Source of the DNA: Planctomycetaceae bacterium
GTDB taxonomy: Bacteria > Planctomycetota > Phycisphaerae > Phycisphaerales > SM1A02
Assembly: GCA_021297815.1 (NCBI GenBank)
Contig: JAJTGK010000038.1
Location: 1 to 37,551, forward strand
DNA length: 37,551 nt
Direction: 5' to 3'
This document shows, piece by piece, positions 35,450 to 35,845 of this stretch. The notes beneath the pieces are model-generated. The model saw nothing but the letters and a program-made list of their open reading frames with translations. It was not told where the DNA came from and did no database searches. The translations under genes and the position numbers were made by a program. Each line of letters starts with the position of its first letter. The first letter of the stretch is position 1.

Positions 35450-35614
35450 ATGGCTCGAACGAACACCCGTGCTCCTGAACTGAATGTCTACACCGCGCTG
35501 GTCGTGGTGACCGCGCTCGTCCTTCTTGGCGGCGTGCTTCTGCTCTCCATGAAGAACATGGAGCAGGCCGAGGCGGGCGGAGTGCCCGGCTCTCCGCTCA
35601 ACCTCGTGAAGTGA
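35450..35614 (+). CDS. 54-residue single-pass membrane microprotein
   Basis: ATG at 35450, preceded by AAAGAGGTG (ribosome-binding site), stop TGA at 35612-35614. The 54 residues are a short polar N-terminus (MARTNTRAPELN), one hydrophobic helix (VYTALVVVTALVLLGGVLLL) and a short tail ending in SPLNLVK. It begins 36 bases after the coiled-coil gene, before the strong terminator, so the two are probably co-transcribed and may act together. No family is recognised. The good ribosome-binding site and a complete membrane segment argue that it is real. Confidence 0.72.
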   Translation: MARTNTRAPELNVYTALVVVTALVLLGGVLLLSMKNMEQAEAGGVPGSPLNLVK

Positions 35615-35726
35615 CCGCGAGGCAGATCGACGCTGGGCCGCCTTTGCGGCGCCTCGGTCGAGTGCTCGCGAGCTCAAGCGCCGCGCGCCCTCAGCGTCGC
35701 CTTCCGCCTTGGACAACCTGTTCATT

Positions 35727-35768
35727 CCGCGCGCCGCCCGACTTCCTCGGGCGGCGCGCGCTTCTTCG
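35727..35768 (+). terminator. Strong intrinsic terminator before mreB
   Basis: CGCGCGCCGCCCG (35728-35740) pairs perfectly with CGGGCGGCGCGCG (35748-35760), extended by one A-T pair to 14 base pairs. CTTCTTCG follows. It ends the transcript of the coiled-coil gene and microprotein. Upstream, 35615-35726 contains only a small GCCGC/GCGGC stem and no gene. Confidence 0.72.
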
Positions 35769-35771
35769 TGC

Positions 35772-35777
35772 TACGCT
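35772..35777 (+). promoter_or_regulatory. Possible -10 element TACGCT for mreB
   Basis: GCTACGCT lies directly after the terminator and 68 bases before the mreB GTG. It fits the TAnnnT pattern. The transcript would have a leader of about 60 bases containing the GAGGGAG ribosome-binding site. Confidence 0.38.
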
Positions 35778-35845
35778 CCGTCTTTAAGGGTTGAAGCGGC
35801 CTCGCCGCTCGGGAGCATTCGCGGCCACGCCGCGAGGGAGAAATC

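Follow-up and report, generated by a model that had tools for sequence, protein, structure and literature searches.

Planctomycetes lack FtsZ, and how they shape and divide their cells is still an open question; a passage in a study of Planctopirus limnophila describes mreB, ftsI and ftsW as deletable in that species (PMC6952346). The stretch of DNA analysed here (the window, 37,551 nucleotides from a Planctomycetaceae bacterium) contains a small frame of 54 codons, which lies between the gene for a coiled-coil protein and mreB (Table 1) and which an earlier note, made from the letters of the window, had read as a membrane microprotein and a small partner of the coiled-coil protein. Is this frame a gene, and if so, with what does its product work? 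Judged by its conservation, the frame is a real gene, and judged by its surroundings in other genomes it belongs to a two-gene Planctomycetota module, in which it follows the coiled-coil gene. The module offers a concrete candidate for the question above, being widespread, linked to mreB, devoid of a Pfam or NCBIfam family name, and retained in genomes where searches detected neither MreB nor two markers of peptidoglycan synthesis.

Table 1. Features at the locus, in window coordinates
Feature	Start	End	Strand	Details
lnt, apolipoprotein N-acyltransferase	31460	33136	+	TIGR00546 202.6 bits (cut-off 132.9)
Gene for a HEAT-repeat protein	33165	34271	+	PF13646 80.5 bits (cut-off 27.7)
Coiled-coil partner gene	34514	35413	+	299 aa, GTG start
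Ribosome-binding site GAGGTG	35440	35445	+	read from the sequence, rated good
Microprotein gene	35450	35614	+	54 aa, ATG to TGA; single membrane helix predicted at residues 13-42
GC-rich hairpin with a perfect stem, possibly terminating the coiled-coil/microprotein unit	35728	35760	+	stem 14 bp, loop 5
mreB	35846	36898	+	PF06723 470 bits, TIGR00904 490.5 bits
mreC-like gene, cut by the window end	36974	37551	+	PF04085 21.1 bits, below the cut-off of 28 (partial copy)

The frame is open throughout and encodes MARTNTRAPELNVYTALVVVTALVLLGGVLLLSMKNMEQAEAGGVPGSPLNLVK. A gap of 36 nt separates it from the coiled-coil stop codon, and a good ribosome-binding site precedes it, in agreement with the earlier note. 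This signal is shared among relatives, with a Shine-Dalgarno core (GGAG, GAGG or AGGA) at positions -18 to -5 in 48/75 microprotein orthologues, against a background of 0.22 when the upstream sequence is shuffled and of 0.12 for 658 ATGs taken anywhere in seven loci. The one clear membrane helix expected from the sequence also appears in the structure prediction (block pLDDT 94 and 97 over residues 11-30), and positive residues ahead of it suggest that the N-terminus lies inside. Conserved positions are spread along this helix, with V-Y-T at its start, G28 inside it and N36 in its final section. Across 29 aligned members M1, N36 and G47 never vary, and V13, Y14, T15, L17, L25 and G28 are nearly invariant; in a second set of 48 members M1, L17 and N36 never vary, and Y14 and G28 are nearly invariant. 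The microprotein of the window matches no Pfam or NCBIfam family at E<=1, and searches of the same databases with 54 members of its family gave scattered, weak matches, made by 1 to 4 of them (best E 0.0011). One homologue (L079:1483-2088) carries a long Gly/Ala/Pro-rich tail and totals about 200 residues, so the family is not always small. The idea that the gene falls below common gene-calling limits was overstated, as its 165 nt exceed the minimum gene length of 90 nt used by Prodigal. Its 54 codons likewise exceed the cut of 50 codons that is given as usual in the abstract of PMC7667032, so that size is a weak argument for the gene having been missed by annotation.

Conservation of the frame in relatives, together with a bias towards synonymous substitution, had been set beforehand as the check on whether it encodes a protein, and both were found, the bias in close pairs of orthologues. 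A plain protein search (E<=0.1) recovered the microprotein in 35/61 genomes, comprising 15/16 in the genus including its own, 19/21 others in the family and 1/24 in the rest of the order; its own genome holds a single match at this threshold, and paralogues there were accordingly rejected. Among the 20 closest usable orthologue pairs, dN/dS lies between 0 and 0.36 in 19 and reaches 0.53 in the remaining one, as illustrated by L169/L176 and L166/L171 (pN 0, pS 0.12 in each). Some pairs with low dS have an omega near or above 1 (L116/L118 1.41, L155/L172 1.06, L146/L155 0.86), the median over 1768 pairs with dS<2 is 0.54, and 78 same-genus pairs show a mean pS of 0.55 and a mean pN of 0.30; the 40 closest omega pairs listed are all formed by copies other than that of the window. 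Conservation in relatives and mostly synonymous change in close orthologue pairs thus identify the frame as a gene. Its sequence is very divergent, and many homologues from outside the class were assigned by gene position and a single hydrophobic helix. Profile matches (137/198 genomes in the class; 80/294 and 119/294 in the phylum) include chance ones inside long frames and are therefore unusable as prevalence.

The place of the small frame next to the coiled-coil gene is widely kept. In the first 30 loci the coiled-coil gene was detected by tblastn in 29, the exception (L003) ending at a contig edge, and mreB in all 30. The distance from the coiled-coil stop to the start of the small frame ranges from -38 to +106 nt in 61/73 loci, with eight overlaps, six of them of 20 nt; the set omits L031-L034 (repeats of L015, L007, L016 and L028) as well as L070, L076, L078 and L081 (judged off-target), and the 12 unmeasured loci comprise three without a scripted coiled-coil frame and nine that failed the motif, with the gene visible. 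Further loci came from public records, 80 in all, gathered in one contig scan with patterns taken from close relatives. Of those followed by a tail of >350 nt, 75/78 pass an automatic small-ORF test, L129 and L141 being left out of the 80 because their tails are too short, and the three misses contain a homologous frame by eye (L140 has no suitable ATG, L142 is split between frames and L190 is a coordinate artefact). These records are named as planctomycetes, as 'uncultured bacterium' or oddly (Limnohabitans, Deltaproteobacteria, Chitinophaga), and the last group we took for mislabelled bins.

The same arrangement extends through the phylum. In a Planctomycetota sample, 57/60 coiled-coil genes have directly behind them a small ORF that encodes a strongly hydrophobic helix, and 50/414 other gene ends pass the same test as a control. 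The sample consists of 60 loci picked by hand among the coiled-coil matches listed, representing 57 families (two loci each from f34, f49 and f78); it favours families with strong coiled-coil matches, leaving out f67, f95 and others with weak or unlisted matches, as well as f73, f77, f80, f87 and f99, which had been fetched earlier. Likely coiled-coil genes were removed from the control by motif, and it may still hold real small membrane genes. The three loci that failed the test are L196 (f33), L215 (f57) and L227 (f74).

These counts bear on two rival accounts of the frame. The first is that it is no protein gene at all, and instead a chance ORF, a regulatory leader or a peptide resembling a type I toxin. 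That hydrophobic small ORFs also occur at the control gene ends speaks for such an account; conservation across families, synonymous-biased change in close pairs, the enrichment of Shine-Dalgarno cores and the solitary match in its own genome speak against it, and we regard it as highly improbable. A chance ORF in particular was ruled out by conservation, by the substitution pattern and by the excess of linkage over the controls. The second account accepts the protein and has it act alone, perhaps as a regulator in the membrane or as a stress peptide, its tie to the coiled-coil gene amounting to no more than a common transcript. In favour of it is a genome of family f74 (G295), in which a microprotein-like ORF of 129 residues (L254:1666-2055) lies between a recG reading frame and mreB with its mreC-like neighbour, and the listed coiled-coil gene sits on a separate contig (L227), so the link is not absolute; contact between the two proteins is, moreover, a proposal drawn from gene linkage. 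Linkage in nearly all sampled loci and overlap of the genes in some families are nevertheless hard to explain without joint function, and independent action appears quite unlikely.

Whether the pair forms a transcription unit of its own depends in part on what follows it. The 14-bp terminator that was expected to close the unit is present as a hairpin, which starts 113 nt past the microprotein stop and is followed by a weakly T-rich tail, CTTCTTCGTG. A scan for terminators gave 1 site where shuffled sequence gave 1.0 (sd 0.9), a chance-level result, whereas RNA folding of 35700-35790 gave z = -3.71, and perfect stems of at least 8 bp lie between the microprotein gene and mreB in 9/12 same-genus loci (L112-L123) and in 31/75 loci overall. 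Given the folding score and the same-genus stems on one side and the weak tail and chance-level scan on the other, the hairpin is a plausible, not a proven, terminator. The short spacing, the overlaps and the hairpins of the same-genus loci suggest that the coiled-coil gene and the microprotein are co-transcribed, and such hairpins would in addition separate these two genes from mreB.

The coiled-coil protein itself is modelled by AlphaFold2 as an N-terminal membrane helix running into a coiled coil (residues 3-195), followed by a six-stranded barrel (218-295), with a mean pLDDT of 86.6 and a pTM of 0.32, the latter value making the relative placement of helix and barrel unreliable. Its profile, A3, reaches 289/294 phylum genomes at E<=0.001, though in families f67 and f95, with E around 1e-4 to 1e-8, the match may be a chance effect of the coiled coil. 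Most Pfam matches of the family are to generic coiled coils, and UPF0242, matched by 7/47 members of the A3 alignment (best E 1.7e-7), may likewise be reached through the coiled coil only. A Foldseek search with the protein gave no match reaching E 0.001, with F1-ATPase chains at the top, and a profile search of the PDB was set aside as uninformative, the 60 of 588 matches listed being mostly myosin, tropomyosin and similar proteins, except for the MreC structure 2j5u (E 1.5e-5). Two genomes have tandem same-strand coiled-coil matches, two in each (G247:C18, locus L200, and G298:C286, locus L228).

The other frequent neighbour is mreB, and it gives rise to the most serious rival account, in which the microprotein and the coiled-coil protein are dedicated components of the MreB elongasome, which would stand in for RodZ or MreD in planctomycetes and link MreB to the synthesis of the cell wall. 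mreB follows on the same strand, at most 1.3 kb downstream, in 44/55 sampled loci with enough tail (43/53 families), it is present in 72/72 public-record loci with a tail of >1500 nt, and in f74 the microprotein-like ORF stays with mreB while the listed coiled-coil gene is elsewhere. RodZ, furthermore, is reported as absent from planctomycetes in a passage of a review (PMC5147048). Against this account stand the possible terminators between the pair and mreB described above, and the distribution of the genes. PF06723 (MreB) reaches 271/294 phylum genomes at 1e-40, yet the pair does not occur only with MreB: profile searches place it in G394, G429 and G491, each 99% complete, where the same kind of search found no full-length MreB, G394 and G429 having no PF06723 match at 1e-40. 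A loose PF06723 search returned partial matches in these three genomes (best E 4.8e-19, 3.6e-14 and 3.2e-15, respectively), which pass the Pfam cut-off and sit in much longer frames of 650, 674 and 694 residues; control genomes, Corynebacterium glutamicum among them, give matches in the same search as well, and we take those of the three genomes for HSP70. MraY and MurC gave no match over their cut-offs in the three genomes or in G351, weaker matches below the cut-offs being present; G351 has the pair together with a weaker MreB match (1.8e-82).

The converse case, MreB with no microprotein detected, was also encountered. Seven genomes of family f67 and two of f95 have MreB and yield no microprotein match better than E 0.087, one of the f67 genomes (G352) having MraY and MurC as well. 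At two f67 loci (L252 and L253) lnt directly precedes mreB with no HEAT-repeat, coiled-coil or microprotein gene between them, and NCBIfam models identify lnt at both loci and MreB at L252; locus L257 is cut just inside mreB. Since the pair is kept where MreB was not detected and the microprotein goes undetected in MreB-positive f67, the pair is, as far as gene content can tell, no mere accessory of MreB. These same genomes make a strict MreB cofactor less likely, but the linkage to mreB, including that in f74, keeps it a live rival, if a somewhat unlikely one. The pattern fits the patchiness of MreB and peptidoglycan genes across planctomycetes that is described in parts of two published accounts (PMC5147048, PMC8567305).

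We favour, with a probability of roughly 0.6, the reading that the microprotein is a small membrane partner of a coiled-coil envelope scaffold and forms the second half of its two-gene module. The microprotein would be a small bitopic protein of the inner membrane, and the coiled-coil protein would be anchored there by its one N-terminal helix, with the long coiled coil and the single barrel at its far end presumably lying in the periplasm. Most likely the microprotein would pair with this anchor helix, with Y14, G28 and N36 as candidate contact residues, and the pairing could stabilise the coiled-coil protein or help to assemble an envelope scaffold, an idea modelled on MreC, itself a membrane-anchored scaffold of coiled coil and barrel. 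The module, which directly precedes mreB in most of the lineages sampled, may act alongside the machinery of cell-wall elongation, and it is also retained where this machinery was not found. The suggestion that the microprotein is a small partner of the coiled-coil protein thus draws support from gene linkage that holds widely in the phylum, and a physical partnership is what we infer from it; the phylum-wide spread, the adjacency to mreB and the persistence without detected MreB add a context that the earlier note did not have. A bolder extension, which we consider unlikely, is that the pair is an ancestral Planctomycetota envelope scaffold, once associated with MreB, that has outlived MreB and peptidoglycan synthesis in lineages that shed both, and that may organise cell shape or division without FtsZ.

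No paper on the coiled-coil/microprotein pair was found among the openly accessible papers listed in the literature searches. Small single-helix accessory subunits whose genes lie beside that of a larger membrane partner are familiar from KdpF, CydX and AcrZ. The microprotein resembles these in size, in its one helix and in its gene position, and it differs in that its putative partner is scaffold-like and neither a transporter nor an oxidase. The partner, in turn, resembles MreC in the predicted order of N-terminal membrane helix, coiled coil and six-stranded barrel and in a gene that adjoins mreB; by hhalign, the profile of its barrel aligns over 48 columns with the mreC-like proteins found in the genomes studied here (probability 96.8, E 2e-10), and Listeria MreC (2j5u) ranks ninth in its Foldseek search (E 8.1e-3). 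It differs from MreC in its predicted single barrel with six strands in all, E. coli MreC being described, in a passage of PMC8804602, as having two six-stranded barrel domains. It also falls short of the MreC models (TIGR00219 10.8 bits against a cut-off of 92.75; no PF04085 match at E<=1), is accompanied by a separate mreC-like gene 3' of mreB, and is present where MreB was not found. The modelled barrel further aligns with the N-terminal barrels of F1-ATPase (Z about 9) and with chain 8z5n_0 of the flagellar LPHT ring, presumed to be FlgT (Z 9.1, rmsd 1.9, 73 residues), and the FlgT C-terminal domain PF16538 matches 4/47 coiled-coil members at E<=0.1 (best E 0.0046). The six genes examined around the pair, however, include no flagellar or ATPase gene, and as the barrel is of a common small type this likeness reflects a shared fold only. 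Small single-helix partners and MreC-like scaffolds are thus already known, and what is new here is their combination, its spread through the phylum and its persistence without detected MreB.
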